NCBI GenBank assembly: GCA_003137135.1
Contig: PLFB01000232.1
Span: forward strand, 26,373-62,816
DNA: 36,444 bases
Source of the DNA: Acetobacteraceae bacterium
Lineage (GTDB): Bacteria; Pseudomonadota; Alphaproteobacteria; Acetobacterales; Acetobacteraceae
Direction of reading: 5' to 3'
Shown here: piece by piece, positions 4,688 to 33,856 of the stretch
Position numbering within the stretch: position 1 is the first letter of the stretch
How the letters are laid out: the number at the start of each line of letters is the position of its first letter
Notes under the pieces: generated by a model
What the model was told of the DNA's origin: nothing
Seen by the model: only the letters and a program-made list of their open reading frames with translations
The model's database searches: none
Program-made: the position numbers and the translations under genes

Positions 4688-4763
4688 AATGGCGTTCCGT
4701 GCGGTTCATCACGCGTCGGCTTAACAAGAACTCCGGAATATCGGCCGGAGGATGGGGTTGAGA

Positions 4764-6257
4764 ATGTCTCAAGATGTCGGCATCGTTGCTTATGGCGCCT
4801 ATGTCCCGCAATTGCGGTTGCGCCGCAGCGCCATCGTCGCGGCCAATAGCTGGGTCAATCCCGGCCTGAAGGCGCAGGGCAAGGGCGAGCGCGCGTTTGC
4901 CAGCTGGGATGAGGATGCGGTGACGATGGCGGTGGAAGCCGCGCGCGACGCGCTGGGTGAATTTCCGCGCGGCGGCATCTCCGGCGTGGTGTTTGCCTCG
5001 ACCACCGCGCCGTTCGCGGACCGGCTGAATGCCGGCATCGTGGCGGGCGCGCTGGGGCTGGGCGATGACGTGACGGCGTTCGACGTGAGCGGCAGCATGC
5101 GGGCCGGGACCTCGGCGCTGATCGCGGGGCTGGGCCTGGCGGCGACGAGCGAGGGCGCGGTGGTGGTGGCGGCGGGCGAGCGCCGCCGTTCCAAGCCCGG
5201 CAGCGCGCAGGAGTTGGGCAATGGCGATGCCGGCGCGGCGCTGGTGCTGGGTCGCGAAAATATTTTGGCGCGCGTGGTGGCGCGCTACAGCGTGACGCGG
5301 GATTTTGTGGATCATTTCCGTGCCGCCGGCGAGGCGTATGACTATGGCTGGGAAGAACGCTGGGTGCGCGAGGAAGGGTATCTCAAGCTGGTGCCGGAGG
5401 CGGTGCGCGGCGTGCTGGCCAAGGCGCAATTATCGGCGCGCGACATCAGCACGCTGGTGCTGCCCTCGCCGCTGGCCAAGATCGAGCAGGCGGTGGCGAA
5501 GAAGCTCGGCATCGCGGAATCCGCCATCGTCGATGGCCTCAGCGCGCAGCTTGGCTATAGCGGTGCCGCGCATGGCCTGGTGATGCTGGCCGGCGCGCTG
5601 GAAAAGGCCAGGCCGGGCGAGCGGATCCTGGTGGTGAATTTCGCCAATGGCTGCGACGCGCTGATCCTCGAAGCGACACCTGCGATTGCGGATTTTGCGC
5701 CGCGGCGCGGCCTGTCCGGCTGGCTCGCCGTGGGCAAGCCGGTTGATGATTACATGCGATTTCTGTCCTATAACGGCGAAGTCGGGATGGAATGGGGCGC
5801 GCGAGCCGAATTCGGCAATAAATACGCGCTGACAATGGAATACCGGTTCAGCCGCGACATGCTCGGCTTCATCGGCGGGCGCGACAAGGCGACGCGGGTG
5901 GTGCAGTTTCCAAAAACGCCGCTGGCGGTCGCACCTGGTGCGGCGGCCGACCGGGTCGCGTCCTACGAGGATGTGCCGCTCGCCAATCTGCGGGCCCGGG
6001 TCATCGCCTGCACCGCTGACTGGCTGACCTATCATCCGAGCCCGCCGTTTTATTTCGGTCTCGTGCAGTTCGACAACGGCGCGCGGGTGCAGATGGAATT
6101 TGTCGATGTCGCGGCCGGCAGCGTCGCGATCGGCGCCACGGTCGAGATGCTGTTCCGGATCAAGGAGATCGATAACGTCCGGCACTACCGGCATTATTTC
6201 TGGAAGGCGACGCCGGTTGCCGGCGGCGCGGCGCAACAGCTGGAGGCGGCACAATGA
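4764..6257 (+). CDS. HMG-CoA synthase / KASIII-fold protein with C-terminal OB-fold (DUF35-like) region; catalytic Cys apparently absent
   Basis: Thiolase-like fold: VGIVAYGAYVPQLRLRR, GVVFASTTAPFADR, DVSGSMRAGTSALIAGLGLA; C-terminal VQFPKTPLAV...FYFGLVQFDNGARVQMEFVDV. GGAGG at 4746 favours ATG 4764 over 4752. Confidence 0.82.
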   Translation: MSQDVGIVAYGAYVPQLRLRRSAIVAANSWVNPGLKAQGKGERAFASWDEDAVTMAVEAARDALGEFPRGGISGVVFASTTAPFADRLNAGIVAGALGLGDDVTAFDVSGSMRAGTSALIAGLGLAATSEGAVVVAAGERRRSKPGSAQELGNGDAGAALVLGRENILARVVARYSVTRDFVDHFRAAGEAYDYGWEERWVREEGYLKLVPEAVRGVLAKAQLSARDISTLVLPSPLAKIEQAVAKKLGIAESAIVDGLSAQLGYSGAAHGLVMLAGALEKARPGERILVVNFANGCDALILEATPAIADFAPRRGLSGWLAVGKPVDDYMRFLSYNGEVGMEWGARAEFGNKYALTMEYRFSRDMLGFIGGRDKATRVVQFPKTPLAVAPGAAADRVASYEDVPLANLRARVIACTADWLTYHPSPPFYFGLVQFDNGARVQMEFVDVAAGSVAIGATVEMLFRIKEIDNVRHYRHYFWKATPVAGGAAQQLEAAQ

Positions 6258-7456
6258 GCACGGGCATACGCGATAAGGTCGCCATCATCGGCATGGGCTG
6301 CTCGCAGTTTGGCGAGCGCTGGGATGTCGGGTCCGACGAATTGATGGTGGAGGCATTCGTCGAAGCGCTCGGCGATGCCGGGATCACGCGTGACGAGATC
6401 GACGCCGCCTGGTTCGGCGTCTCCTGCGATCCGATCAATGTCGGCAATTCATCGGTCCCGCTCGCGGTCGCGTTGCGCCTGCCGAACATTCCGGTGACGC
6501 GCGTGGAAAACATGTGCGCGACGGGCACCGAGGCGCTGCGTGGTGCCGCCTATGCCGTGGCATCCGGGGCGTGCGATATCGCGCTGGCGCTGGGTGTGGA
6601 GAAATTGAAGGACACCGGCTATGGCGGGCTGCCGGTGCGCACGAAAGGCTTGTTCAACGATCTTTGGATGCCCTATGGCTCGGCGCCCGGCACGTTCGCG
6701 CAGCTGGCAGGGGCGTACGCGGCGGCGCACGACATGCCGATGGCGGATGTGAAGCGCGCGATGGCGCATGTGTCGTGGAAAAGCCATGAGAACGGCGTGA
6801 AAAGTCCGAAGGCGCATTTGCGCAAGGCGGTCTCGATGGAAACGATTTTGAACGCGCCGATGATCGCCGAGCCGCTCGGGCTGTTCGATTGCTGCGGCGT
6901 GTCGGACGGCGCGGCCTGCGCGATCGTCACCACGCCGGAGATCGCGCGGTCGATGGGCAAGAATTCGCCGGTCACGATCAAATCGCTGCAGATCTCGGTC
7001 TCGAACGGGCAGGAATCGAGCTATAACGAGTGGGATGGCTCCTACGTCGTCAACACGCGCAAAGCATCCGGACGCGCCTACGCCGAGGCCGGCATCAAAG
7101 ATCCGAGGCGGGAGCTGAGCCTGATTGAAGTGCATGATTGTTTCTCCGTGACTGAAATGGTCACGATGGAGGATCTGGGCATTTCGTCGCCGGGTAAGGC
7201 GCCGCGCGATATTCTGGACGGCTTTTATGACGCGGATGGCAAAATCCCTTGCCAGATCGATGGTGGATTGAAATGCTTTGGGCATCCGATCGGCGCCTCC
7301 GGCCTGCGCATGGCCTATGAGATGTATCTGCAATTGCAGGATAGGGCGGGTGAGCGGCAGCGCGCGGACGTGCGTTTTGGACTGACGCATAATCTCGGCG
7401 GCACGCCGATCAACAATGTCGCCTGCGTCGGCATTTTCGGCCGCCTGGGAGACTGA
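6254..7456 (+). CDS. SCP2-type thiolase / acetyl-CoA acetyltransferase
   Basis: VENMCATGTEALRGAAYAVASG (nucleophilic Cys), EVHDCFSVTE, GGLKCFGHPIGASGLRMAYE. Start overlaps the previous stop as ATGA. Confidence 0.92.
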   Translation: MSTGIRDKVAIIGMGCSQFGERWDVGSDELMVEAFVEALGDAGITRDEIDAAWFGVSCDPINVGNSSVPLAVALRLPNIPVTRVENMCATGTEALRGAAYAVASGACDIALALGVEKLKDTGYGGLPVRTKGLFNDLWMPYGSAPGTFAQLAGAYAAAHDMPMADVKRAMAHVSWKSHENGVKSPKAHLRKAVSMETILNAPMIAEPLGLFDCCGVSDGAACAIVTTPEIARSMGKNSPVTIKSLQISVSNGQESSYNEWDGSYVVNTRKASGRAYAEAGIKDPRRELSLIEVHDCFSVTEMVTMEDLGISSPGKAPRDILDGFYDADGKIPCQIDGGLKCFGHPIGASGLRMAYEMYLQLQDRAGERQRADVRFGLTHNLGGTPINNVACVGIFGRLGD

Positions 7457-7461
7457 ACGCC

Positions 7462-7917
7462 ATGGCCGGGCTGTTTTATGAGCAATTCGAGTTGGGCCAG
7501 AAATTCAGCCACGACATCCGCCGCACCGTGACGGAGACGGATAACATTCTGTTCACGACGCTCACGCATAACCCGGCGGCGATTCATCTGGACGCTGAAT
7601 CCGCGAAAAATTCGCCGTATGGGCAGGTTATTATGAACAGCGTGTTTACGCTGGGGCTGATGGTGGGCGTTTCCGTTGGGGACACGACGCTGGGAACCAC
7701 GGTTGCCAATCTTGGCTGGGACGAAGTGCGGTTTCCCAAGCCGGTGTTTGTCGGGGACACGCTGCGCGGCGAGACCGAAGTGATGGAGAAGCGGGAAAGC
7801 AAGTCTCGGCCGGAGACGGGGATCGTCGTGTTCAAGCACACTGCCTATAATCAGCGCGATGAACTGGTGGCGAGCTGCCTGCGGTCGGCGCTGATGTACA
7901 AGGCGCCGGCGGGCTAG
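7462..7917 (+). CDS. MaoC family dehydratase (hot-dog fold)
   Basis: FTTLTHNPAAIHLDAESAKNSPYGQVIMNSVFTLGLMVG motif. Confidence 0.88.
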   Translation: MAGLFYEQFELGQKFSHDIRRTVTETDNILFTTLTHNPAAIHLDAESAKNSPYGQVIMNSVFTLGLMVGVSVGDTTLGTTVANLGWDEVRFPKPVFVGDTLRGETEVMEKRESKSRPETGIVVFKHTAYNQRDELVASCLRSALMYKAPAG

Positions 7918-7922
7918 TCGAG

Positions 7923-8783
7923 ATGTTGCGCTCCTTCCTCTTTGTGCCCGGCGACAGCGAAAAGAAGATTCTGCGCGCAGCGGAATGCGGCGCTGATGCA
8001 TTGATTTTGGATCTTGAGGATTCCGTGGCGCCTGAGCGCAAGCCAGCGGCGCGCGACATGGTGCGCGCGCGGCTAGCGGCGCGGGTGGCGGGCGGGCCGC
8101 AACTCTGGGTGCGCATCAATCCACTGGACGGTCCGGAGGCGCTGCACGATCTCTGCGCGATTGCGAGTGGGCGGCCGGATGTCGTGGTGGTGCCAAAAGT
8201 CAGTCATGCCTCCGAGCTCGGCGTGCTGCACGCCTATCTGGATACGCTGGAGACTCGCGAAGATTTGCCGCGCGGCGCCATCGGCGTGGTCCCGGTTGCG
8301 ACCGAAACCGCCGCCGCACTTTTCAATCTCGGCAGCTACGCGCCGGCGCCGCCCCGCCTGGCCGGGCTGACCTGGGGAGCGGAGGATCTGGCGGCCGCGA
8401 TCGGTGCGGTTTCCAACAGCGATGCACACGGGCTGACGCCGCTCTATCAGCTCGCGCGCGGGCTTTGCCTGGCCGCCGCGGCCAGCGCGGGGGTGCCCGC
8501 GATTGATACCGCCTGCATGACGTTGAACAATGTCGCGGCGCTTGAGGCGGAATGCGCGGCGGCGCGGCGCGATGGGTTTCGCGGCAAGCTCGCGATCCAT
8601 CCCGCGCAGGTCGCGGTCATCAACCAGAAATTCTCGCCGGGCGAGGCGGAGATCGCGCAGGCGCGCGCGATCGTCGCGGCGTTCGAGGCCGATCCGCGGC
8701 TCGGGACATTCCAGCTCGACGGCCGCATGATCGATATTCCCCATCTCAAACAGGCCAGAAAGATTCTGGCGTCGCTCGCTTAA
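7923..8783 (+). CDS. HpcH/HpaI aldolase / citrate lyase beta-like (CitE-like) CoA lyase
   Basis: RSFLFVPGDSEKKILRAAECGADALILDLEDSVAPERKPAAR, GLTWGAEDLAAAIGA, GKLAIHPAQVAVIN. Confidence 0.92.
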   Translation: MLRSFLFVPGDSEKKILRAAECGADALILDLEDSVAPERKPAARDMVRARLAARVAGGPQLWVRINPLDGPEALHDLCAIASGRPDVVVVPKVSHASELGVLHAYLDTLETREDLPRGAIGVVPVATETAAALFNLGSYAPAPPRLAGLTWGAEDLAAAIGAVSNSDAHGLTPLYQLARGLCLAAAASAGVPAIDTACMTLNNVAALEAECAAARRDGFRGKLAIHPAQVAVINQKFSPGEAEIAQARAIVAAFEADPRLGTFQLDGRMIDIPHLKQARKILASLA

Positions 8784-8822: not shown

Positions 8823-9989
8823 ATGCAGATCGAGCTTAGCGAAGAGCATCAGGCCATCCAGGAAAGTGTCAAGAAAATCTGCGCGGGTTTTGACGATGCC
8901 TACTGGACCGCGCGGGAAGAGGAAAAAACCTTTCCGTTCGAGTTTCATCGCGCGATGGCGGATGGCGGCTGGCTTGGCATCACGATGCCGCCGGAACTCG
9001 GCGGCGCCGGGCTCGGCGTCACCGAGGCGGCGATCATGATGCATACCGTGACCAGCAGTGCCGGCGGCTATTCCGCGGCCAGCACCATCCATCTCAATCT
9101 CTTCGGTCCGCACGCGGTCGTGGTGTTCGGCAATCCCGAGCAGAAGGAGCGGATGCTGATGCCGCTGATCAAGGGCGAGGATAAGGCGTGTTTTGGCGTC
9201 ACCGAGCCGGATGCCGGCCTCGATACCACCAGCATCACCACGTTCGCCACCAAGGTTACGGGTGGCTACCGGGTGACGGGGCGCAAGATCTGGACATCCT
9301 CCGCCCAGGTGGCGAACAAAATCGTGCTGCTGACCCGCACGACGCCGCGCGAGCAATGCCGTAAACCAACCGACGGACTTACATTATTCTATACCGACCT
9401 TGATCGGACGCAGATCGAGGTCCGCCGGATTCCGAAGATGGGGCGTAATGCGGTGGATTCCAATGCGACCTTCATCGACGATTATTTCATTCCGGATCGC
9501 GACCGGATCGGCGAGGAAGGCAAAGGGTTTCACTACATTCTGCACAGCCTGAATCCGGAGCGGATTCTTGTCGGGATCGAGGCGGTGGGGCTGGGGCAGG
9601 GGGCGCTGGCGCGGGCGGCGAATTATGCCAGGGAACGAAAAGTCTTTGGCCGGATCATTGGCGCCAACCAGGGCATCGCGCACCCTTTGGCGGAAAGCTG
9701 GGCGGCCTTGGAATCGGCGTACTGGATGCTGATGCGCGCCGCGTATTTGTATGATGCCGGCAAATCCTGCGGCGCGGAGGCGAATGCCGGCAAATTTTTG
9801 GGCGCGCGCGCGGCGTTTGATGCGTGCACGCGGGCGGTGATGACGCATGGCGGCATGGGTTATTCGAAAGAATACCAGGTGGAGCGCCTGTTCCGTGAAT
9901 CGATTTTGCTGCGCATCGCGCCGATCACGGAGCAGATGATTTTGAATTTCATCGGCGAGAAAATCCTGGATCTGCCGAGATCGTATTAA
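8823..9989 (+). CDS. Acyl-CoA dehydrogenase
   Basis: GVTEPDAGLDTTSITTFATK, ARERKVFGRIIGANQGIAHPLA, THGGMGYSKEYQVERLFRES motifs. Confidence 0.93.
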   Translation: MQIELSEEHQAIQESVKKICAGFDDAYWTAREEEKTFPFEFHRAMADGGWLGITMPPELGGAGLGVTEAAIMMHTVTSSAGGYSAASTIHLNLFGPHAVVVFGNPEQKERMLMPLIKGEDKACFGVTEPDAGLDTTSITTFATKVTGGYRVTGRKIWTSSAQVANKIVLLTRTTPREQCRKPTDGLTLFYTDLDRTQIEVRRIPKMGRNAVDSNATFIDDYFIPDRDRIGEEGKGFHYILHSLNPERILVGIEAVGLGQGALARAANYARERKVFGRIIGANQGIAHPLAESWAALESAYWMLMRAAYLYDAGKSCGAEANAGKFLGARAAFDACTRAVMTHGGMGYSKEYQVERLFRESILLRIAPITEQMILNFIGEKILDLPRSY

Positions 9990-10016: not shown

Positions 10017-10937
10017 ATGACAGGGCTTCTTGAAGGTAAAGTGGTGGTGGTGACCGGCGGGGGCCGGGGAGTCGGCCGGGGCATCGCGCTGGAAATCGCG
10101 AAAGCCGGCGGCAAGGTCGTCGTCAATGATCTCGGCGTCGGCCCGGGGGGCGAGGTGGACGGCAGCCTTGGGCCGGCGCAGGACGTCGTCGATGAAATCA
10201 AGGCGGCGGGCGGCGAGGCGGCTGCCTCCACCGATAGCGTGGCGACCTGGAAGAGCGCGCAGCAGATCGTGGCGGCGGCGCTCGATAATTTCGGCCGGAT
10301 CGACGGGGTTGTGAACAACGCCGGCATTCTGCGGGATACGATCTTTCATAAGCTGGCGCCGGAAGATTTTGAACTGGTGCTGAACGTGAATCTACTGGGA
10401 CCGTTTTATGTCAGCCGCGCGGCGGCGCCGTATTTCAAGGAGCAGGCCTCCGGGTCATTTGTGCATATGACGTCGAGTTCCGCGCTGATCGGCAATTTTG
10501 GCCAGGCGAATTATATCGCCGCCAAAGCCGGCATCGTCGGCCTGTCGCGGTCGATCGCGCTGGACATGCAGCGGTTCAACGTCACCTCCAACTGCATCGC
10601 GCCGTTCGCGTGGACGCGGATGGTGAACACGATACCGACCGACACGCCCGAGCAGCGCGAGCGCGTCGAGGGCTTAAAGAAAATGGTGCCGGAAAAAATC
10701 GCGCCCTTCGTCGTGGCGTTGCTATCGGATGCCGGGCGCGCGCGGGTGAACGGGCAGATTTTTGGCGTGCGCAACAATGAGATCTTCTTCTTCTCGCAGA
10801 ACCGGCCGACGCATATCGCGCATAATGGCGATGGCTGGACGCCGGATACCGTGATCGAACGCGCTTTTCCCATGCTGGAGCCGCACTTCTTTCCGCTGGT
10901 GCGTTCTGGAGAAATCTTTTCCTGGGCGCCGTGCTGA
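10017..10937 (+). CDS. SDR family dehydrogenase, MFE-2/HSD17B4-like 3-hydroxyacyl-CoA dehydrogenase
   Basis: VVVTGGGRGVGRGIALEIAKAGGKVVVNDLG, NNAGILRD, SSSALIGNFGQANYIAAKAG. Confidence 0.9.
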   Translation: MTGLLEGKVVVVTGGGRGVGRGIALEIAKAGGKVVVNDLGVGPGGEVDGSLGPAQDVVDEIKAAGGEAAASTDSVATWKSAQQIVAAALDNFGRIDGVVNNAGILRDTIFHKLAPEDFELVLNVNLLGPFYVSRAAAPYFKEQASGSFVHMTSSSALIGNFGQANYIAAKAGIVGLSRSIALDMQRFNVTSNCIAPFAWTRMVNTIPTDTPEQRERVEGLKKMVPEKIAPFVVALLSDAGRARVNGQIFGVRNNEIFFFSQNRPTHIAHNGDGWTPDTVIERAFPMLEPHFFPLVRSGEIFSWAPC

Positions 10938-10940
10938 GCC

Positions 10941-11810
10941 ATGCCGTTCGATCGCGACTATCTCAAAAGCTACGCCTTCTCGGAGTCCACGCAGGCCTAT
11001 GAGAAGCGCGACACCATGCTCTACGCGCTGGGTCTCGGGCTGGGTGCGGAGCCGACCAATCCCGGCCATCTCAAATTCGTCTATGAGAAATCGCTGTGCG
11101 CCTTGCCCACCATGGGCGTGGTGCTGGCGCATCCGGGTTTTTGGGCGGGGATCGAGGAGCTTTCCATCGACTGGGTCAACATGCTGCATGTCGGCCAGGG
11201 CCTGACCATCCATCGGCCGATCCCGGTGCAGGGCCGCGTCATCGGGCGCTCGCGCGTCGCCGAAGTGTTCGACCGCGGCCCGGGAAAGGGCGCGCTGCTG
11301 CTCTATGAGCGCGACGTTTGTGAAGTCGGCAGCGGCGAGCCGATCGCCACCGTGCGCCAGACGCTGCTATGCCGCGGCAATGGGGGATTCGCGGGGGTGC
11401 CGGCGGAGATCCCGAAACCGCATATCGTGCCGGCGCGCGCGCCGGACCACGTGGTCGAGCAAAAAACCTTGCCGCAGATGGCGCTGATTTATCGGCTTTC
11501 CGGCGACATGAACCCGCTGCACGCCGACCCGGAGGTCGCCGCGCGGGCCGGCTTCGCGCAGCCCATTCTGCACGGGCTGGGCACCTTCGGCATCGCCGGG
11601 TTCGCGCTGCTGCAGGCCGTGCTGGACTATGACCAGACCCGTCTGCGCGCGATGGATGTGCGCTTCACCGCGCCGGTGTTTCCGGGCGAGACGATCCGGA
11701 CCGAATTATGGCTGGACGGCGAAACCGTCTCGGTGCGCTCCACAGCGCTCGAACGCGGCAAGATTGTGCTGGATAACGGGCTATGCTTGATTGCCAAAAA
11801 AACAACATAA
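10941..11810 (+). CDS. MaoC-like enoyl-CoA hydratase 2 (MFE-2 hydratase-like)
   Basis: Hydratase-2 motif YRLSGDMNPLHADPEVAARAGFAQPILHGLGTFG; directly after the HSD17B4-like SDR. Confidence 0.9.
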   Translation: MPFDRDYLKSYAFSESTQAYEKRDTMLYALGLGLGAEPTNPGHLKFVYEKSLCALPTMGVVLAHPGFWAGIEELSIDWVNMLHVGQGLTIHRPIPVQGRVIGRSRVAEVFDRGPGKGALLLYERDVCEVGSGEPIATVRQTLLCRGNGGFAGVPAEIPKPHIVPARAPDHVVEQKTLPQMALIYRLSGDMNPLHADPEVAARAGFAQPILHGLGTFGIAGFALLQAVLDYDQTRLRAMDVRFTAPVFPGETIRTELWLDGETVSVRSTALERGKIVLDNGLCLIAKKTT

Positions 11811-11825
11811 TTGGGGAACCGCCTG

Positions 11826-12758
11826 ATGGCGAATGCGGGCAAAGTGATCATTACATGCGCGGTGACGGGTTCGATCCATACGCCGTCGATGTCGCCGCAT
11901 CTGCCGGTGACGGCGGAAGAAATCGCGCAGGCCGCGATTGACGCGGCGGAGGCCGGTGCCGCGATCGTGCATCTGCACGCGCGCAATCCACAGGATGGCC
12001 GGCCGGACCAGTCACCGGAGGCGTTCGAGCCGTTTCTGAAGGTGATCAAGCAGCGCTCGGGCGTGGTCATCAACCTCACCACCGGCGGCTCGCCCTATAT
12101 GAGCGTCGAGGAACGCATCCGCCCCGCGGCTTTGTACAAACCGGAAATCGCCAGCCTGAACATGGGGTCGATGAATTTTGGCCTGTTTCCGATGCTGAAG
12201 CGCTTTAAGGATTTCAAGCATAGCTGGGAGCGCGAGATGCTGGAGAACAGCAAGGACCTCGTGTTCCGCAATTCCTTCAAGGATATCCGCTACGCGCTGG
12301 AGACGCTGAACGAGACCCAGACGCGCTACGAGTTTGAATGCTACGACACCAGCCATCTGTACAACCTGCATTATTTCTGGACCGAAGGGCTGGTGCAGGC
12401 GCCGTTATTTATTCAGACGGTGTTTGGATTGTTGGGCGGCATCGGGCCGCATCCGGATGATCTGATGCATATGAAGCGGACGGCCGACCGGCTGTTTGGT
12501 GAACATTACCGCTGGTCGGTGCTGGGTGCGGGCAAAGCACAGATGCCGCTGGCCGCCATGGGGGCGGCGATGGGCGGCAATGTGCGGGTGGGGCTGGAGG
12601 ATAGTCTGTGGATCGGCAAGGGCCAGTTGGCGCCGTCCAACGCGGCGCAGGTCCGGCAGGTGCGAAAAATTATCGAGGGCCTGGGGCTGGAAGCCGCGAC
12701 GCCGGATGAGGCGCGCGAGATTCTCGGCCTAAAGGGCGCTGACCGGGTGAATTTTTAG
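11826..12758 (+). CDS. Beta-keto acid cleavage enzyme (BKACE, DUF849 family)
   Basis: VIITCAVTGSIHTPSMSPHLPVTAEEIAQAAIDAAEAGAAIVHLHARNPQDGRP, LNMGSMNF, VRVGLEDSLWIGKGQLAPSNAAQV. Start refined to ATG 11826. Confidence 0.92.
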   Translation: MANAGKVIITCAVTGSIHTPSMSPHLPVTAEEIAQAAIDAAEAGAAIVHLHARNPQDGRPDQSPEAFEPFLKVIKQRSGVVINLTTGGSPYMSVEERIRPAALYKPEIASLNMGSMNFGLFPMLKRFKDFKHSWEREMLENSKDLVFRNSFKDIRYALETLNETQTRYEFECYDTSHLYNLHYFWTEGLVQAPLFIQTVFGLLGGIGPHPDDLMHMKRTADRLFGEHYRWSVLGAGKAQMPLAAMGAAMGGNVRVGLEDSLWIGKGQLAPSNAAQVRQVRKIIEGLGLEAATPDEAREILGLKGADRVNF

Positions 12759-12773: not shown

Positions 12774-14342
12774 ATGCACCCGCGTGAAACGGCACGCCTG
12801 TATCCGGACAAGCCCGCCTGCATCATGGCGGGGTCTGGCGCTATCGTGACTTATGGCGCGCTGGCGAAGCGGGCGAATCAGACCGGGCGGCTGCTGCGGA
12901 GCCTTGGCCTTCTGCGCGGCGACCATGTGGCGGCCTTGATCGAGAATCATCCGGATTATTACGTGCCGGTCTGGGCGGCACTGAACACCGGCCTGTATTT
13001 CACCAGCATCAGCACCTTGTTCACGCCGGGCGAAATCGCCGGCATTCTGAATGATTGCGGCGCCAAAGTGCTGTTCACCAGCGTCGCCATGGCGCACACG
13101 GTCCGGGACGTATTGCCCCTGGTGGGCGGCCTTAAGGCGGTGTTCATGCTGGGCGGCGCGATAACCGGTGCCACGGATTTTGATGCCGCCATCGCCGGCC
13201 TGGATGATTCCCCGCTGCCGGATGAGCGCCAGGGCGCGCTGATGGTGTATTCCTCCGGCACCACCGGCACGCCAAAAGGCATCAAGCCAAATCTGCCGGA
13301 CCTGCCGGTGGACGTGCCGATGGGGCTGGTCGCGGCGCAGTTGAAACTTTTCGAATTTGGCGAGGCGACCGTATATCTCTCGACCGCGCCGCTCTACCAT
13401 ACCGCGCCGCTGAAATGGAATTTGACCGTGCAGGTTTCGGGCGGGACTTCCATCGTCATGGAAAAATTCGACGCCGAGGCGGCGCTGGCGCTGATTGAAA
13501 AATATCGCGTCACGCTGGCGCAGTTCGTGCCGACGATGTTCATCCGCATGCTGGCCTTGCCCGAGACGGTGCGGCAAAAATACGATCTCTCTTCGCTGCG
13601 CCAGGTGGTGCATGCCGCGGCACCCTGCCCGCCGGACATCAAGCGCCGGATGATCGAATGGCTGGGGCCGATCATCGACGAATATTATGCCGGCAGCGAG
13701 AGCAATGGGCTTTGTTTGATCCGCTGTCATGAATGGCTGCTTCGTCCCGGCTCGGTCGGCCGCTCGGTGCGCGGGCCGGTGCATATCATGGCCGAGGATG
13801 GCGAGACCGAACTGGCGCCCGAAAAACCCGGCGTGATCTATTTTGAGGGCGGCACGCCGTTTGAGTATCATAACGATATTGCAAAAACCCGGCGCGCGCA
13901 TAACAGCCGGGGCTGGAGCGCGATCGGCGACATCGGCTATGTCGATGCGGAGGGCTATGTGTTCCTGACCGATCGCGCGCAGGACATGGTGATTTCGGGC
14001 GGCGTGAACATCTACCCGCGCGAGGCGGAGAATGTTCTGGCGGCGCATCCGGCGGTGTACGATGTCGCGGTCATCGGCACGCCCGACGAAGAATTTGGTG
14101 AGGCCTTGCGCGCCGTGGTGCAGCCGGTATCGCTTGCGGCGGATCGGGCGGGACTGGAAGCCGAACTGCGGGCGTTTTGCGCCGCCCGGCTCGCATCCTA
14201 CAAATGCCCGCGGTTTTACGATTTTGTTGATGAATTGCCGCGACTGCCGACCGGCAAATTGCTAAAACGCGCCTTGCGCGAAAAATATTGGGGCGGCCGC
14301 GCGCCGGTTACCGCCATCGCCGCCAATGCCACGAAAGGATGA
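12774..14342 (+). CDS. AMP-dependent acyl-CoA synthetase/ligase
   Basis: P-loop-like MVYSSGTTGTPKGIK; GWSAIGDIGYVDAEGYVFLTDRAQDMVISGGVNIYPREAENVL; C-terminal LPRLPTGKLLKRALRE. Confidence 0.93.
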   Translation: MHPRETARLYPDKPACIMAGSGAIVTYGALAKRANQTGRLLRSLGLLRGDHVAALIENHPDYYVPVWAALNTGLYFTSISTLFTPGEIAGILNDCGAKVLFTSVAMAHTVRDVLPLVGGLKAVFMLGGAITGATDFDAAIAGLDDSPLPDERQGALMVYSSGTTGTPKGIKPNLPDLPVDVPMGLVAAQLKLFEFGEATVYLSTAPLYHTAPLKWNLTVQVSGGTSIVMEKFDAEAALALIEKYRVTLAQFVPTMFIRMLALPETVRQKYDLSSLRQVVHAAAPCPPDIKRRMIEWLGPIIDEYYAGSESNGLCLIRCHEWLLRPGSVGRSVRGPVHIMAEDGETELAPEKPGVIYFEGGTPFEYHNDIAKTRRAHNSRGWSAIGDIGYVDAEGYVFLTDRAQDMVISGGVNIYPREAENVLAAHPAVYDVAVIGTPDEEFGEALRAVVQPVSLAADRAGLEAELRAFCAARLASYKCPRFYDFVDELPRLPTGKLLKRALREKYWGGRAPVTAIAANATKG

Positions 14343-14346
14343 AGCC

Positions 14347-15153
14347 ATGAGTGCTGATCTACTCACCGAGGTGAAGGACGGCATCGCCCGGATGACGATC
14401 AACCGGCCGGACCAGCATAACGCCATGTCAGGCGAAATGTTGCAGGAGATGCTGGAATTCGTGCTGCATGTTGAAACCCTGCCGCAGGTGCGCGCGTTGC
14501 TGATCACCGGCACCGGTCCGCATTTCGCGGCCGGCGGCGACGTCAAAAGCTTTGCCTCGGTGATCGGCAGTTCGCCTGAAATTCTGCGCAAGGATTTCGA
14601 GCGCCGTTCCGAAGCGGCGGCACCGCTTTGGCTGGCGCTGGAACGCTTGCCGCAGCCGGTGGTGTGCGCGGTGCGCGGATTCTCGGCGGGTGCTGCGTTG
14701 AGTTTTGTCGCCGGCGCCGATTATTCCATCGCGTCCGAAAATTCGAAATTTTTGCTGGCGCATGTCGGCATCGGGCTCGTCGCCGATGCCGGCACGACGT
14801 ACCATCTACCGCGCGCGATCGGCATTCGAAAAGCCAAGGAGCTGGCGTTTTTCGGCGACCGGATCGATGCGCAGCAGGCGCTGCAGATCGGCCTCGTCAA
14901 CAAGGTGGTGCCGGATGCGGCGCTGGAGAGCGAGACGGAAACCATCCTCAAGCGTCTCGCGGCAGCACCCGCCGTTTCCATTGCCAATGCCAAGCGTCTG
15001 CTCAATGCCTCGCTCAACAATAGCTTCGACGAACAGCTCGCTCTGGAGACCGCCGCCGTCGGCAATTGCGGGGCGTCGGCGGATCTCAAGGAAGGTGTTC
15101 TGGCGTTTATCGAAAAGCGGCGGCCGGAATTCGGCAAGGCCGTGCTGTCTTAG
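14347..15153 (+). CDS. Enoyl-CoA hydratase/isomerase (crotonase) family
   Basis: MTINRPDQHNAMSGEM, GTGPHFAAGGDVKSFA, GFSAGAALSFVAGADYSIAS. Confidence 0.92.
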   Translation: MSADLLTEVKDGIARMTINRPDQHNAMSGEMLQEMLEFVLHVETLPQVRALLITGTGPHFAAGGDVKSFASVIGSSPEILRKDFERRSEAAAPLWLALERLPQPVVCAVRGFSAGAALSFVAGADYSIASENSKFLLAHVGIGLVADAGTTYHLPRAIGIRKAKELAFFGDRIDAQQALQIGLVNKVVPDAALESETETILKRLAAAPAVSIANAKRLLNASLNNSFDEQLALETAAVGNCGASADLKEGVLAFIEKRRPEFGKAVLS

Positions 15154-27033: not shown

Positions 27034-28743
27034 GTGGGGATGGTTCAAGTGGAGAAAATCAAGACCGACCTGGCGGCGAAGGACCTGGCGCGACCTCGGG
27101 AAAACCGGCGGCCGCGCGGATTGCACCTGGCGCTGCTGGCCGGCACCGCCGTTGGCATGGTCGTATGCCTCGGTTCGCGCCCGGCGCGGGCCTTTAATCT
27201 CTATACCGGCACATACAGCGATCAGTCTCTGACGATCAATCTCGAGACCGAAATCGAATATTCGACGATCTACCGCGTCAACGATCCCTCCGCGATTCTC
27301 GCCGGCCCGCAGGACGCCAATCAGAATGACGGCGATGTGGATTTCCGCCATGGTTTTGTGGATAATTCGTTCACGGTCACGCCGGTCTTCGACGTGAAAT
27401 ATGGCAATTACGGTGTGCATGTCAGCGGGGACGCGTATCTCGACACGTCCTATCTTGACAAAAGCCAGAACAACGATGCCGCGACCTACAACCCTTATTC
27501 GACGGCGTCGAACCGGGATTTCACCAGCGCCACGCGCAACATCAACGGCGAGAACGCGCAACTGCTCGACGCCTTTGTCTATGGCACGGAGGAATTCGGC
27601 GCCAATGACGAGCAGTCGATCGAAGTCAAATTCGGCCGCCAGACCTTGCTGTGGGGCCAGAGCTTCTTCTTCCCCACCACCGGCATCGCCGGCGGCCAGG
27701 CGCCGATCAACATTATTACCGCGCAGAGCCTGCCCAATCCGCAGGCGCAGCAACTGTTCCAGCCGGTCGGCCAGGGTGTCGTCACCTATCAGCCGAACGA
27801 GGTTCTGACCTTTCAGGGCTACTACCAGTTTGAATGGGAGCCCGATACGTTCCAGGGCGTGGGCGCGTATTTCAGCAGCGCCGACTTCTTCGACAAAGGC
27901 GGCCAGCGCCTCATCCTCGGGCCGGGTATCGATGCCTATCGCGGCAAGGATCTGCGGCCGGGACATAACGGCCAGTTCGGCGCCTCCGTGCAGGCGACGC
28001 TCGGCAATTACGACCTTGGCCTGTATTACGAACGTTTCGACGCGAAGGCGCCGGAAATCTATCTCGGGCTGCCCACGGCGGGTGAGCCGGCGGGTTCCGC
28101 GGGCACCTACTACCTGGTCTATCCCCGCGATATCAGCCTGTATGGCGCCTCGGTCTCCACCACGGTGGGACCCGCCAATGTCGCGGCGGAAATTTCTGGA
28201 CGCACCAATCAGCCGCTCGATAGCGGGTTCGGGCTGCTGTATAATCCGCTCACTTTCGCGCCGGTCGCGGGCAACGCCAATTCGCATCCGCTCTACGCGG
28301 TCGGTGATACGGTCGATGCGCAGGCCTCGATGTTCTACATCTCGCCCGGGTTCATCGGCGATCCCGGCGGCGCCACGGTGATCGGCGAAATTCAGGGCAA
28401 CAAGCTCGTGTCGGTCACCGCCAATCAACAGGCTTTGGTACAGGGCCGCGATCCGACCGCGGTGGCGTTCGACGTCGAGGTCGAGCCGACCTATTACAAC
28501 GTCCTGCCTAATCTCGAGATCCAGTTCCCGATCAGCGTCAACTACACGCTGCTCGGCCGTTCGCAGATCGCCGCCAACGTCAACCATGGCACCGGCACGA
28601 TCGATGTCGGGATTGCCGGGACCTATCAGACCACCTGGATCGGCACGCTGAGCTACCAGGACTATCTCGGCGCGGCCAACCCGTCATTCAACGGCGACGC
28701 CGATCGCGGCTATGTTTCGTTCAATTTGCAACACACGTTCTGA
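27034..28743 (+). CDS. DUF1302 family protein, putative outer-membrane beta-barrel
   Basis: Signal-like N-terminus LHLALLAGTAVGMVVCLGSRPARAFN, FGRQTLLWGQSFFFPTTGIAGGQAPINI, alternating beta-strand composition, C-terminal Phe (VSFNLQHTF). Start may be 27040. Confidence 0.82.
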   Translation: MGMVQVEKIKTDLAAKDLARPRENRRPRGLHLALLAGTAVGMVVCLGSRPARAFNLYTGTYSDQSLTINLETEIEYSTIYRVNDPSAILAGPQDANQNDGDVDFRHGFVDNSFTVTPVFDVKYGNYGVHVSGDAYLDTSYLDKSQNNDAATYNPYSTASNRDFTSATRNINGENAQLLDAFVYGTEEFGANDEQSIEVKFGRQTLLWGQSFFFPTTGIAGGQAPINIITAQSLPNPQAQQLFQPVGQGVVTYQPNEVLTFQGYYQFEWEPDTFQGVGAYFSSADFFDKGGQRLILGPGIDAYRGKDLRPGHNGQFGASVQATLGNYDLGLYYERFDAKAPEIYLGLPTAGEPAGSAGTYYLVYPRDISLYGASVSTTVGPANVAAEISGRTNQPLDSGFGLLYNPLTFAPVAGNANSHPLYAVGDTVDAQASMFYISPGFIGDPGGATVIGEIQGNKLVSVTANQQALVQGRDPTAVAFDVEVEPTYYNVLPNLEIQFPISVNYTLLGRSQIAANVNHGTGTIDVGIAGTYQTTWIGTLSYQDYLGAANPSFNGDADRGYVSFNLQHTF

Positions 28744-28764
28744 GACCTCAGGAGCGCCAGAAAA

Positions 28765-30156
28765 ATGAAAAGACGCACATTCGGAATCATGGCCGGCGGC
28801 ACCGCGGCGGCGCTCGCCGCCGGTCTGCCCAAGCCGGCGCGCGCGACGGTGACGGCCGACCAGGCCGCGACGTTGAAAACGACCTTGACGCCGTTCGGCG
28901 CCGAGAAGGCCGGCAATGCCGATGGCTCGATCCCGGCATGGACCGGCGGCCTGACGGAGACCGCGCCGGGTTGGACGGAAGGTACGCAACAGCCGGATTA
29001 TTTTGCGTCGGACGCGCCTTTGCTGACCATCAATGCCGGCAATGTCGCACAATATGCCGATATGCTGCCGGTCGGCGTCGTCAACATGATCAACAAGCAT
29101 TCAGACTTCTATGTGCGGGTTTACCCGACGCACCGCACCGCGGCGGCGCCGCAATGGGTCTATGACAACACCTATCAGAACGCGACCTCCGCGCAGTTGG
29201 ACCCGCGCGGCGGCAGGTTCGGCTTTCACGGCGCCTATGGCGGCATCGCGTTCCCGATCCTGGACCCCGATCCGGCCATCGCCGGACCGCAGGCGATCTG
29301 GAACCATCTCACCCGCTGGGACGGCGCCAATTATAAATTTGTCGTCTCGGCCTACATCATCTCCGGCGGGAATATTTCGCTCGGTGGCCTGTACTGGCTG
29401 AAATATCATTATCCCTACTACGATCAGAGCGGCTCGCTGGCGAATTTCAACGGCTGGTATGAATATATCCATCTCGATTACATCGCCCCGCCGGTGCTGG
29501 TCGGGCAGGTTCTGATGGAGTGGTCGCCGACCAACGCGCTCGATTCACCTTCGCAGGCCTGGGAACTGCTGAATGGCCAAGGCCGCGTGCGCAAGGCGCC
29601 GGAACTGACCTACGACACGCCGACCGCGACCGGTGGCGGCATCACCAATTATGACGAGTCGTACGGATTTTATGGCTCGCCGGACCGCTATAATTGGACC
29701 TATGTCGGCAAAAAAGAAATGTATATTCCCTATAACAACAATGCGCTGGCCAATTCCGATCCGAACAAGGTGATCGGTCCGGAATTTATCGATTCATCGG
29801 TCTGCCGCTTTGAAAAACACCGTGTCCATATTGTGGACGCCGTGCTGGCGCCTGGTGAACGCCACACGATTCCGCACCGCCGCGTCTATATCGATGAGGA
29901 TAACTGGCATATCGCGGCGGTCGATGAGTATGACGCCAACGGCAACTATGTAAAACTCTGCCTGGAGTTCAATACCAATGCTCCAAATCTGCCGGGAACC
30001 GTGTTTCTGAATTCGGTGGTCTATAATCTGCAGACCAATCAATACACGGTCGGCACCGGCGCGTTTTTCAACCCGCAATATCCCGGCATCGAATTCGGTC
30101 CGCAGGATCCAAAACTGTTCAATCCGCAGGATATCGCGGCGCAGGGCCAGTACTAG
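28765..30156 (+). CDS. DUF1329 family periplasmic/outer-membrane-associated protein
   Basis: Signal MKRRTFGIMAGGTAAALAAGLPKPARA; LTPFGAEKAGNADGSIPAWTGGL is typical of DUF1329. Confidence 0.87.
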   Translation: MKRRTFGIMAGGTAAALAAGLPKPARATVTADQAATLKTTLTPFGAEKAGNADGSIPAWTGGLTETAPGWTEGTQQPDYFASDAPLLTINAGNVAQYADMLPVGVVNMINKHSDFYVRVYPTHRTAAAPQWVYDNTYQNATSAQLDPRGGRFGFHGAYGGIAFPILDPDPAIAGPQAIWNHLTRWDGANYKFVVSAYIISGGNISLGGLYWLKYHYPYYDQSGSLANFNGWYEYIHLDYIAPPVLVGQVLMEWSPTNALDSPSQAWELLNGQGRVRKAPELTYDTPTATGGGITNYDESYGFYGSPDRYNWTYVGKKEMYIPYNNNALANSDPNKVIGPEFIDSSVCRFEKHRVHIVDAVLAPGERHTIPHRRVYIDEDNWHIAAVDEYDANGNYVKLCLEFNTNAPNLPGTVFLNSVVYNLQTNQYTVGTGAFFNPQYPGIEFGPQDPKLFNPQDIAAQGQY

Positions 30157-30218
30157 GGTTATCGCCGTGCTCTCACCCGGCGAGCGCGCGGCGTCCGTCT
30201 GAGGCCGGGTGAAGAGGC

Positions 30219-31358
30219 ATGTCATTGAGCAAGGTTGCGCGTCTGACGAGGAGGTGGCGGCTGGGCCTGCTGGTCTTGCCGAGGGCTCTGATCGCCATGG
30301 CGCTGTTCTGCGTGGCCTTCGGCGGCCCTGCGGTGGCCGCGGAGACGGGTATACGCGCCCTCGATGAAGCCGCGATCCAGATCAAGGCGCCGGACAAAGT
30401 CTTTCTCGATGCGATCACCACCGCCGGCAGCCGGCTGGTGGCCGGCGGCGAACACGGTGTGATCATCATTTCGGACGATAATGGTCTCACCTGGCGGCAG
30501 GCGGCGGTACCGGTGAATGTCGAGATCACCGCCATCAGCTTTGCTACGCCGAGCCAGGGCTGGGCGGTGGGCCATTACGGGATCATCCTGCACACGCAGG
30601 ACGCGGGTGCCACCTGGCAGGTGCAGTTGAACGGCCTGCAGGCCAACCAATTGACCTTGGCGGCCGCCCAGGCGGCGGTTGCGGCCAATGATCCGTCGCC
30701 CGGCACGCCGCTCGCGCTCAAACGCGCGGCCCATTTCGTCAGCGGCGGCGCCGACAAGCCGCTGCTCACCATCTGGGCGGCAAGTCCGCAAGACGCCATC
30801 GTGTTCGGCGCCTATCGCCTGGCCTTGAAAACCACGGATGGCGGCAAAAGCTGGACCGATTGGAGCCTGCATGTCGGCGACGCCTACAGCCATAATCTCT
30901 ATGACGTGACCGCGGTGGGCGGCCAGGTTTATATCGCGGCCGAAACCGGCATCATTTTCCGCTCCAGCGATGGCGGCGGGACATTTCAGAACATCGCCAC
31001 GCCCGGCACCGCCACGCTGTTTGGCGTGCACGACGCCGGCGATGGCGGCGTAGTGGTGTTTGGCGTCGCCGGGCAGATTTTTCTCAGCGACGATCAGGGA
31101 AAATCCTGGAAGGCCGCCAGCATCGGCACTTCGGACAATTTGACCGCCGCCGTGACGCTGCGGGACGGCAGCCTTGTTCTTGCCTGCGAGAACGGCACGC
31201 TCTATAGAAGCACGGATCACGGCCAAAGTTTTTCGCCGTTGCCGCTCGCAATCCCGATGGCCATATTCGACCTGGTGCAGGCGCCCGACGGCGCGCTGGT
31301 GTTGGCCGGGAATGCCGGAAGTCTTCGTATTCCATTACAAGACTTAAGAACGAACTAA
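30219..31358 (+). CDS. YCF48/BNR-repeat beta-propeller-like exported protein
   Basis: Repeated Asp-box-like blocks: DDNGLTWRQAAVP, DAGATWQVQLNG, DGGKSWTDWS, DGGGTFQNIA, DQGKSWKAAS, DHGQSFSPLP. Confidence 0.85.
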   Translation: MSLSKVARLTRRWRLGLLVLPRALIAMALFCVAFGGPAVAAETGIRALDEAAIQIKAPDKVFLDAITTAGSRLVAGGEHGVIIISDDNGLTWRQAAVPVNVEITAISFATPSQGWAVGHYGIILHTQDAGATWQVQLNGLQANQLTLAAAQAAVAANDPSPGTPLALKRAAHFVSGGADKPLLTIWAASPQDAIVFGAYRLALKTTDGGKSWTDWSLHVGDAYSHNLYDVTAVGGQVYIAAETGIIFRSSDGGGTFQNIATPGTATLFGVHDAGDGGVVVFGVAGQIFLSDDQGKSWKAASIGTSDNLTAAVTLRDGSLVLACENGTLYRSTDHGQSFSPLPLAIPMAIFDLVQAPDGALVLAGNAGSLRIPLQDLRTN

Positions 31359-31359
31359 C

Positions 31360-31392
31360 ACGGAGATGGATGCCCTAGAACGGAGATGGATG
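31360..31392 (+). repeat. Duplicated SD-like direct repeat ACGGAGATGGATG
   Basis: 31360-31372 and 31380-31392; period 20 bp; immediately before the TTG start at 31394. Confidence 0.8.
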
Positions 31393-31393
31393 T

Positions 31394-33856
31394 TTGGCTA
31401 ACCATGGTGCAACGCCGTCCCCGGTCATCGCCGAGATTGCGGATTTCGACCGCAATTCCGGCTCGCGCGCCGAACGGCTATTGTTCAACAATCGCCTCGT
31501 CATTCTGCTTGGCTGCCTTTTTCTGACGCTGTTTCTGGGATTCCAGGCGACGAAGACGACGTTGAATGCCAGCTACGACAGCATGCTGCCGATCCATCAT
31601 CCGTTCATCGTGAACTATTTCAAGCACTACGATGATCTGCAGTCGCAGGAGAACGCGATCCGTATTGCCGTGTCGGCCGATCATGGCACGATCATCGACG
31701 CGCATTATCTTTCCGTGCTGCAGCGTATCAGCGATGAGGTCTATCTGCTGCCCGGCGTCAATCGCCCTTACATGACTTCGCTCTGGACTTCGAACACGCG
31801 CTGGGTCGCGGTGACGCCGGATGGTCTGAGTTCCGGCCCGGTGATTTTTGACCAGTTCAGCGGCAGCAAATCCGACCTGGCGCTCGTGCAAAAGAATATC
31901 GGAGAGACCGGGCAAATCGGCCAGCTCGTCAGTCCGGATTTCACCTCGAGCATGATCTATGTGCCGCTGCTGGAACACAACAATCTCACCGGCAAGCCGC
32001 TGGACTACGGCGATCTGGCGCGCCGGCTGAATGCGATCCGTGACAAGTATGCGAGCCAGGGTGTCACGCTGCATATTGTCGGTTTCGCGATGATCGTCGG
32101 CGACATGATCAACGGTCTCGACAGAATCCTATTTTTCTTCGGGGTTTCCATCCTGCTCGCGACGGCGGTGCTGTATTGGTACACGCGCTGCATCCGCTCC
32201 ACGGCGCTGGTGGTCACCGCCTCGCTCGTCGCCGTGGTTTGGCAGCTTGGTCTGCTGCCGATGCTGGGCTTCGATCTGACGCCGTATTCCATTCTGGTGC
32301 CGTTCCTGATTTTCGCGATCGGCATGAGCCACGGCGCGCAGAAGATGAACGGCGTGATGCAGGATATCGGCCGCGGCACGCATCCGCTGATTTCCGCCCG
32401 GTACACGTTCCGGCGGCTGTTCGTGGCCGGTTTTGCGGCGCTGACCTGCGATGCGGTGAGTTTCGCGGTGCTGCTGACCATCAAGATCAACGCGATTCAG
32501 GAACTGGCCCTGATCGCGAGCATGGGTGTGGCGATTCTGATTTTCACCAACCTGATCATGCTGCCGATGCTGCTGAGCTATACCGGGGTCAGCAAGGCCG
32601 CCGCGGTGCGCAGCCTGCGCCACGAGGCCGCGGCGGGCGACGATCGCGTGTCGCATCCGCTGTGGAATTTCCTCGATCTTTTCACGCAGCGCCGGTATGC
32701 CGCCATCGCCATCCTGGGCGCCGTGGTGTTGGGCGGCGCCGGCTGGGTGGTGGGGCAGCGCGTGCAGGTGGGCGACCTGGCACCCGGCGCCCCGGAACTG
32801 CGGCAGAATTCGCAGTATAATCGCGACAACGGCTACATCCTGAAGAACTACGCGATTGGTAACGACTCGTTCATCGTCTTGGTCGATACGCCAGCGAATC
32901 ACTGTTACGACATCTCGACGCTGCTGACGCTGGATGACCTCGACTGGCAACTGGACCAGTTGCCGGGCGTCGAGAACGCGTCGTCGATCGCCTCGTTCGG
33001 CGAAAATGCGACGATGCTGATGACGGAGAACTCACCGAAGTGGTTCGCCAACGTCAATAGCGACGCCACCGTGCAGGACTACGCGCAGACCGTTCCGGCC
33101 TCGCTGGCGAATTTTTCCTGCAACTTTGACCCGATCTATGTTTCGCTGCTGGACCACAAGGCCACGACGCTGAATGCGGTCGTGAAAACCGTGCAGGATT
33201 TCGCGGCGCTGCCGCAAAATCAGAGCACCGACTTCAAGATTTCACTGGCGGGCGGCAATGCGGGCGTGGCGGCGGCGACGAATATCGTGGTCGCGCAGGC
33301 CAATGAGAGCATGCTGGCGCTGGTCTATGCCTCGGTGATCCTTTTTTGCTTCATCACGTTTCGGTCATGGCGCGCCGTGGTCTGCGCCGTTCTGCCGCTC
33401 GTGCTCACCTCCATTCTGGCGCAGGCGCTGATGGTGCTGCTGCATGTCGGCATCAAGGTGGCGACACTGCCCGTCATCGCGCTCGGTGTCGGCATCGGCG
33501 TGGACTATGCGCTCTACGTGCTAAGCATTCTGCTGCGGCAGTTGCGCCAGGGGGCGAGCCTGTCGGAGGCCTATCATCGGACCTTGCTGTTCACCGGCAA
33601 GGTGGTGGTGCTGACCGGCTTCACGCTTGCCGCGGGTGTGGTGACCTGGGCATTCGCGCCGATAAAATTCCAGGCGGATATGGGTCTGCTTCTCGCCTTC
33701 ATGTTCTTGTTGAACATGCTGGGCGCGCTGATTCTGCTGCCGTCGTTGTGTTATTTTCTGCTGCCGGCGCGCCTGTTCCGCCAGGAACCGGTCAGCGCCA
33801 TCGCCGTGCGGCCCATAACCCAGGCGGCGGCGGCCAAGAAGACATTCGTCAGTTAG
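31394..33856 (+). CDS. RND/MMPL family transporter
   Basis: 820 aa, two multi-TM blocks (LLFNNRLVILLGCLFLTLFLGFQ; IALGVGIGVDYALYVLSILLRQL; FTLAAGVVTWAFAPIKFQADMGLLLAFMFLLNMLGALILLPSL). TTG start. Confidence 0.92.
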   Translation: MANHGATPSPVIAEIADFDRNSGSRAERLLFNNRLVILLGCLFLTLFLGFQATKTTLNASYDSMLPIHHPFIVNYFKHYDDLQSQENAIRIAVSADHGTIIDAHYLSVLQRISDEVYLLPGVNRPYMTSLWTSNTRWVAVTPDGLSSGPVIFDQFSGSKSDLALVQKNIGETGQIGQLVSPDFTSSMIYVPLLEHNNLTGKPLDYGDLARRLNAIRDKYASQGVTLHIVGFAMIVGDMINGLDRILFFFGVSILLATAVLYWYTRCIRSTALVVTASLVAVVWQLGLLPMLGFDLTPYSILVPFLIFAIGMSHGAQKMNGVMQDIGRGTHPLISARYTFRRLFVAGFAALTCDAVSFAVLLTIKINAIQELALIASMGVAILIFTNLIMLPMLLSYTGVSKAAAVRSLRHEAAAGDDRVSHPLWNFLDLFTQRRYAAIAILGAVVLGGAGWVVGQRVQVGDLAPGAPELRQNSQYNRDNGYILKNYAIGNDSFIVLVDTPANHCYDISTLLTLDDLDWQLDQLPGVENASSIASFGENATMLMTENSPKWFANVNSDATVQDYAQTVPASLANFSCNFDPIYVSLLDHKATTLNAVVKTVQDFAALPQNQSTDFKISLAGGNAGVAAATNIVVAQANESMLALVYASVILFCFITFRSWRAVVCAVLPLVLTSILAQALMVLLHVGIKVATLPVIALGVGIGVDYALYVLSILLRQLRQGASLSEAYHRTLLFTGKVVVLTGFTLAAGVVTWAFAPIKFQADMGLLLAFMFLLNMLGALILLPSLCYFLLPARLFRQEPVSAIAVRPITQAAAAKKTFVS

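Follow-up and report, generated by a model that had tools for sequence, protein, structure and literature searches.

An HMG-CoA synthase-fold/DUF35 fusion protein without the catalytic triad is encoded next to an intact thiolase in a catabolic gene cluster of an Acetobacteraceae bacterium

Introduction

What is left to do for an HMG-CoA synthase (HMGS)-fold protein that has lost its catalytic cysteine? This question is raised by the forward-strand open reading frame at positions 4764-6257 of a 36,444-nucleotide stretch of DNA from an Acetobacteraceae bacterium (GenBank assembly GCA_003137135.1, contig PLFB01000232.1), which is referred to as the window throughout. A preliminary description of the letters had seen in its product a non-canonical partner, scaffold or retro-aldol subunit rather than a true HMGS.

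Several multi-component systems are available for comparison. In archaeal HMGS, Glu82 and Cys114 are the key residues, and in the acyltransferase PhlABC the subunit PhlA lacks both Cys and Glu, while the DUF35 protein PhlB bridges the PhlA and PhlC dimers; acyl transfer is carried out by residues of PhlC alone, yet all three subunits are required (PMC6392133). PhlA was described in 2010 as an inactive member of the thiolase superfamily paired with an active thiolase, and fusions of DUF35 to members of this superfamily were noted (PMC2954200). SCP2-type thiolases carry an HDCF motif in addition to the nucleophilic Cys, and the aldolases Sal (YDCY, Gly instead of that Cys) and Ltp2 (YDHF) deviate at these positions (PMC12329534).

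Materials and Methods

Relatives were collected in a scan of GTDB genomes, which returned 306 stretches encoding relatives, 80 of which were kept as loci (cited by L numbers). A search of the query's own genome and 60 relatives added a few more fusion loci. The HMGS family model was also run against a separate sample of 398 genomes from the phylum, which served as an independent check.

Results

The query is an intact fusion of an HMGS-fold domain and a DUF35 OB-fold domain

The open reading frame encodes an intact protein of 497 amino acids. ATG 4764 was preferred as start over the in-frame ATG 4752, because a GGAGG motif is located at ~4747-4752. Residues 4-340 match archaeal-type HMGS models of NCBIfam under the curated cut-offs (PRK04262, 197 bits versus 244; TIGR00748, 150 versus 353), and the score against the HMGS model TIGR01835 is also too low (43 versus 360). 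The fusion to an OB-like domain, proposed earlier from the letters, is borne out by Pfam, as PF01796 matches residues 424-465 above its cut-off (29.5 versus 27.1 bits). With respect to DUF35 membership the OB domain is therefore present, and the Cys4 (or Cys3His1) zinc ribbon is absent. The features of the locus are collected in Table 1.

Table 1. Features of the fusion gene and its neighbours, in window coordinates
Position	Strand	Feature	Basis
4764..5783	+	HMG-CoA-synthase-fold domain, catalytically degenerate (~residues 1-340)	NCBIfam, PDB matches, AF2, Foldseek
5004..5006	+	Thr81 codon at HMGS catalytic-Glu position (Glu82 of 6esq_I)	Alignment
5097..5099	+	Met112 codon (ATG) at HMGS catalytic-Cys position	Alignment of 88 family members and references; extended sets
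5295..5387	+	Family-specific conserved loop DFVDHFR...DYGWEERW(V/I)R(E/D)EG (residues 178-208), candidate partner/ligand interface	Residue conservation
5463..5465	+	Pro234 codon at HMGS catalytic-His position	Alignment
5874..5945	+	Degenerate zinc ribbon, four Cys replaced (Asp374, Thr, Ala, Ala)	Alignment; PF12172 absent
5964..6218	+	OB-fold domain of DUF35 (OB_ChsH2_C; residues ~401-485)	Pfam PF01796 above cut-off
6254..7456	+	Partner thiolase, catalytic residues intact (Cys88, HDCF 294-297, His344 of GHPIGASG)	PRK06157; residue conservation
7462..7917	+	MaoC-type enoyl-CoA hydratase (RipB/mesaconyl-CoA hydratase-like), conserved module member	Domain/family matches, synteny
7923..8783	+	CitE/HpcH-type CoA-ester lyase (RipC-like), conserved module member	Domain/family matches, synteny
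8823..9989	+	Acyl-CoA dehydrogenase, conserved module member	Pfam, synteny
10017-10937	+	SDR dehydrogenase, module member in some relatives	Pfam, synteny
10941-11810	+	MFE2-type hydratase, module member in some relatives	Pfam, synteny
11811-12758	+	Beta-keto-acid cleavage enzyme (BKACE), same catabolic cluster	Family matches
12774-14342	+	AMP-dependent acyl-CoA ligase, same catabolic cluster	Family matches
14326-15153	+	PaaG-like enoyl-CoA hydratase, same catabolic cluster	Family matches

By sequence, the best PDB matches of the query are PhlA (E 4e-35), CsATase PhlA and the Methanothermococcus HMGS 6esq_I (E 6.5e-32). The AlphaFold2 model, built from an alignment of 24 sequences, has a mean pLDDT of 87 and a pTM of 0.90, and its best Foldseek match is again 6esq_I (TM 0.88 by target, 28% identity). 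The HMGS subunit of 6ESQ, PhlA, CsATase PhlA and MucABC head the structural matches; the first ten all come from multi-component complexes (HMGS, PhlA and MucABC subunits), and classical HMGS and KASIII rank after them. A pseudogene or decaying copy was rejected in view of the open frame, the high confidence of the model and the purifying selection in sister genes (see below). At the start of the window, a 543-aa open reading frame (461-2092) has no NCBIfam or Pfam match.

The catalytic triad is lost throughout the family

Met112, which lies in DVSGSMRAGTSAL, occupies the column of the HMGS catalytic Cys. It is aligned with the Cys of two HMGS, namely Cys114 in 6esq_I from Methanothermococcus (EFACKAGT) and that of the S. 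aureus enzyme, and with a Gly of PhlA (QFAGKSGT). The replacement of the catalytic Cys by Met, as read from the letters in the preliminary description, was thus confirmed against HMGS references, and the Glu and His are gone as well. In the 88 aligned full-length fusions, the query included, the Cys column is occupied by Gln (60), Leu (24), Met (3) or Arg (1) and in no case by Cys. The Glu column is Thr in all 88, and the His column is Pro in 86 and Ala in the other 2. Since the loss of the Cys is family-wide, the Met itself is not special; a particular role of Met112 was rejected given the varying filler, and its reading as a peculiarity of a single protein did not hold.

More distant fusions extend this picture. 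Ala, Pro, Gly and Thr are also found at the Cys column, and another 15 fusions (Proteobacteria, Actinobacteria, haloarchaea) were all without Cys there. Neither Cys nor Glu occupies the HMGS columns in those of Rhodococcus, Mycobacterium, Streptomyces, haloarchaea and more proteobacterial plasmids. One of them, L094, has a His at the catalytic-His column. In the independent sample of 398 genomes, Cys is absent from the catalytic column in 9 fusions and the Glu/Cys/His triad is found in 0 of the 10 fusion-carrying genomes, the window's own genome being one of the ten. Three MvaS-type HMGS of this sample keep Glu, Cys and His in the same alignment, which therefore would have revealed a Cys in the fusions.

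The Cys of the NGCDAL motif (Cys297), which falls in the segment aligned with the HMGS GSGAGSD motif, had been named as the residue that might take the place of the nucleophile. Its column is Cys in 38, Val in 37 and Ala in 13 of the 88 members, a variation that rules it out as a conserved substitute for the nucleophile.

Two loops of the HMGS-fold domain are conserved anew

The loop around the former Glu (residues 77-90, STTxPFxDRxN) and the loop at residues 178-208 show about twice the conservation density of the remainder of the domain, and the segments of the former Cys and His contain fewer near-invariant positions than the domain average. In loop 178-208, 55% of the positions are at least 90% conserved, compared to 29% for the domain. 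In the monomer model, residues 181-200 of this loop have low confidence (pLDDT ~60), which would be in keeping with an interface. The conservation of STTxPFxDR and DFVDHFR...DYGWEERW exceeds the need of a passive scaffold and is the main reason to consider that the HMGS-fold half may act on a ligand, by binding or by processing it.

The zinc ribbon is lost in the query and partly eroded elsewhere

Between the two domains, the query stretch GGRDKATRVVQFPKTPLAVAPGAA aligns column by column with the C4 zinc ribbon of the relatives (GGKCTVCGTVQFPRTHYCVNPNCQA) and keeps 0 of the 4 Cys. The zinc-ribbon model PF12172 matches several relatives (23-30 bits) and does not match the query, and a majority of the relatives retain all four ribbon Cys. 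None is left in the query, in L094 (Sphingopyxis) and in L104 (Novosphingobium SA1), and only the first Cys is retained in the Parvibaculum and Caulobacter relatives and in L014/L090. The absence of Cys from the linker to the OB-fold region, pointed out before, was therefore confirmed at all four columns; however, the missing zinc ligands are not peculiar to one protein, as their loss recurs partly or fully in several relatives. With its metal ligands gone, the ribbon of the query branch presumably folds without zinc.

Partial erosion with three Cys replaced (e.g., CTSN) is seen in L053, L055, L057, L078, L119, L121, L127, L014 and L090, and is spread over more than one part of the tree (Parvibaculum, Caulobacter and others). 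A clade of the three zinc-less proteins had a support of 92 in a quick tree and was not established in a careful tree (53/83). The three may nevertheless go back to a common ancestor.

The fusion is accompanied by a catalytically intact thiolase

The gene directly downstream encodes a thiolase of 400 amino acids whose start overlaps the stop codon of the fusion gene by ATGA. It scores 664 bits against the acetyl-CoA acetyltransferase model PRK06157 (NCBIfam cut-off 403), and its PDB matches are 7yvy (E 2e-54), 6esq_A (E 8.5e-51) and, far behind, PhlC (E 3e-15); the window thiolase (P0002) also matches BbsB (7pxp_C, E 5e-38). In a strict search of the loci around the 88 fusions, a thiolase orthologue was found beside the fusion in 81, a near-constant adjacency, and among the loci without a match several are short contigs ending nearby. 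Wherever the column is covered in the up to 80 orthologues, the catalytic residues are invariant (Cys88 in 80/80, HDCF in 75/75, His344 in 74/74). Thus, the neighbouring thiolase with its Cys and the ATGA overlap stood as described. The retro-aldol subunit considered as an option in the preliminary description found no support, as Cys88, HDCF and GHPIGASG are kept in every relative covering those columns.

No separate DUF35 subunit is encoded in the cluster, and the sole other DUF35 match in the genome adjoins another thiolase on contig C247. This second, separate pair of thiolase and DUF35 protein (C247:5054-6582; L106, L107) shows 26% identity to the window thiolase.

The pair belongs to a beta-oxidation-type gene cluster

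The thiolase gene is followed by a row of genes for CoA-ester metabolism (Table 1). The order fusion, thiolase, MaoC hydratase and CitE-like lyase is kept in six loci of other genomes, namely three of the same genus, Sphingosinicella terrae, Novosphingobium SA1 and Sphingopyxis macrogoltabida 203N; the order of the acyl-CoA dehydrogenase, SDR and hydratase is common to the latter two. The acyl-CoA dehydrogenase is 83-84% identical in the same-genus loci and L020. The BKACE scores above the NCBIfam cut-off for 3,5-dioxohexanoate:acetyl-CoA acetone transferase and is 82% identical to one near the module on a Sphingopyxis plasmid (L114). A literature search on the substrate of the cluster gave no match, and the substrate of the BKACE could identify the pathway.

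Dxr is present in the genome and no match to HMG-CoA reductase was found, an absence that is not absolute at a genome completeness of 84%. Hence nothing points to a mevalonate pathway in which an HMGS would be needed, and a true HMGS of this pathway was rejected on these grounds.

Beside the catabolic genes, at 27034-33856, the window encodes a DUF1302 protein (27034-28743), a DUF1329 protein (28765-30156), a Ycf48/BNR-repeat protein and an HAE3-type RND transporter. DUF1302 or DUF1329 proteins are also encoded near the fusion in L093 and L097, both plasmid loci, and the set may therefore be an uptake or export system that accompanies pathways of this kind.

The fusion is widespread and under purifying selection in sister loci

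The fusion was detected in 10 of the 398 sampled genomes (~2.5%), counting the window's own. One was found in Thauera terpenica, and a distant fusion sits on a plasmid of Novosphingobium sp. ES2-1, an estrogen degrader. Fusions of HMGS fold and DUF35 without the HMGS triad are also encoded in haloarchaea (L100, 4995-6431; L101, 4992-6413), beside a thiolase and beta-oxidation genes. The architecture is therefore shared by Bacteria and Archaea.

Compared with the thiolase, the fusion evolves faster. The mean identity of the query to its relatives is 47% for the fusion versus 69% for the thiolase, and other pairs at similar thiolase identity show on average 51% versus 70%. In the sister loci, where some dS values are near saturation, the dN/dS of the fusion is 0.13-0.19 (same genus) and 0.05-0.08 (Parvibaculum), and that of the thiolase 0.02-0.08, so that the constraint on the fusion is ~2-3 times looser. 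Nevertheless, these values indicate purifying selection, and therefore that the gene is maintained.

Discussion

The closest parallels to the query are complexes of three modules. The Methanothermococcus complex 6ESQ, its best structural match, combines the same thiolase, HMGS and DUF35 modules; however, its HMGS is active (Glu82, Cys114, His), the subunits are separate and it belongs to the mevalonate pathway. PhlABC (P. protegens ATase, 5M3K/5MG5) and its homologue CsATase (9SKH) share with the query an HMGS-fold subunit without Cys and Glu (in PhlA these positions are Gly115 and Cys83), a DUF35 component and an active thiolase-fold subunit. The query has the degenerate HMGS fold, the adjacent intact thiolase and a fused OB fold; the ribbon Cys are absent from it and present in most relatives. 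In contrast, PhlA and PhlB are separate proteins, PhlB has a C4 zinc site, and the reaction is a CoA-independent C-acyl transfer in antibiotic synthesis, whereas the context of the query is catabolic. MucABC of Streptococcus macacae (9VBO/9VBT) likewise pairs an HMGS-fold subunit (MucA, Glu at the Cys column) with a thiolase-like partner, but its subunits are separate, the identity is 21-22%, and the PDB titles speak of a multi-component acyltransferase. Catabolic parallels are provided by the benzoylsuccinyl-CoA thiolase BbsAB (7PXP), which works with a DUF35 subunit that has a C4 zinc site and lacks any HMGS-fold subunit, and by the steroid aldolases Ltp2-ChsH2 and Sal-Shy. In the latter the thiolase fold is docked on a DUF35 domain which is fused to a hydratase and not to an HMGS fold, and the active sites carry the aldolase residues YDHF or YDCY, with Gly at the nucleophile of Sal.

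We consider it likely that the query is a non-catalytic HMGS-fold subunit fused to a DUF35 docking domain, and that it forms a complex with the thiolase of its catabolic, beta-oxidation-type operon. The earlier view that it is a partner or scaffold rather than a true HMGS is supported by the family-wide loss of the triad, the structural matches and the missing sign of a mevalonate pathway. By analogy with 6ESQ and PhlABC, the DUF35 domain would bridge an HMGS-fold dimer and a thiolase dimer, and the HMGS-fold half would form part of the wall of a shared acyl-CoA cavity and stabilise the thiolase. All chemistry would be done by the thiolase (Cys88, His294/Cys296, His344), in a thiolytic cleavage of a beta-ketoacyl-CoA. 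As the context comprises a CoA ligase, an acyl-CoA dehydrogenase, hydratases, an SDR, a CitE-like lyase and a beta-keto-acid cleavage enzyme, this would be a step in a beta-oxidation-type pathway for a growth substrate, probably cyclic or branched. The thiolase may release a dicarboxylic or branched acyl-CoA, whose breakdown the dehydrogenase, MaoC and CitE-like enzymes would finish.

Other readings have to be weighed against this one. The match of residues 4-340 to HMGS models and the position of Cys297 in the GSGAGSD-aligned segment could speak for a true HMGS or condensing enzyme with another nucleophile, which is extremely improbable considering that Glu, Cys and His are all lost across the family, that Cys297 is kept by fewer than half of the members, that the scores stay below every HMGS cut-off and that Dxr, but no HMG-CoA reductase, was found in the 84% complete genome. 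A retro-aldolase like Ltp2-ChsH2 or Sal-Shy is suggested by the pairing of a thiolase fold with DUF35 and by the neighbouring MaoC hydratase. We regard it as highly unlikely, as all thiolase orthologues retain the nucleophilic Cys and HDCF where both aldolases deviate, the partner falls in the PRK06157 model, and the aldolase complexes described have no HMGS-fold subunit. It is also very unlikely that the complex transfers the acyl group onto a small molecule as a CoA-independent C- or N-acyltransferase instead of performing thiolysis. PhlABC, CsATase and MucABC are the closest solved structures after the archaeal complex and have the dead HMGS-fold subunit in common with the query, but the neighbours are beta-oxidation-like catabolic genes and form no biosynthetic cluster, and the thiolase is far closer to acetyl-CoA acetyltransferases (7yvy, 6esq_A) than to PhlC.

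A further alternative starts from the conserved loops. In the KSQ domains of polyketide loading modules the Cys is replaced by Gln and the domain acts as a decarboxylase. With Gln as the commonest filler of the Cys position and loops 77-90 and 178-208 hyper-conserved and partly family-specific, the HMGS-fold domain might have a second, cysteine-independent activity of this kind based on the re-conserved loops. This seems unlikely, because the filler varies freely down to the Met of the query, none of the 88 fusions has kept the catalytic His (Pro or Ala instead), and PhlA, the characterised analogue, plays no part in the acyl-transfer step. A somewhat broader idea, that the HMGS-fold half is a second, cysteine-free ligand-binding or catalytic site which channels acyl-CoA to or from the thiolase, with a zinc-free DUF35 bridge in the query branch, is speculative and is given here tentatively. 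The non-catalytic partner of a thiolase stays the preferred reading.

The principle of a dead subunit is already known from PhlA. Its fused, catabolic and widespread version appears undescribed in the literature searched, where no paper describing an HMGS-DUF35 fusion was found. Distinctive here are the fusion, the re-conserved pocket and loop, and the complete loss of the zinc ribbon in the query branch.

Members of this family are found in catabolic clusters of several degraders, and the names given to them by annotation pipelines are OB-fold protein, 3-oxoacyl-ACP synthase III C-terminal protein or HMG-CoA synthase. As the fusion looks like an obligate partner of the thiolase, the pair should be co-expressed, and no mevalonate step should be inferred from such a gene. 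In addition, the members in which evolution has removed the zinc site in part or altogether offer a way to ask what the zinc ribbon of DUF35 proteins is for.
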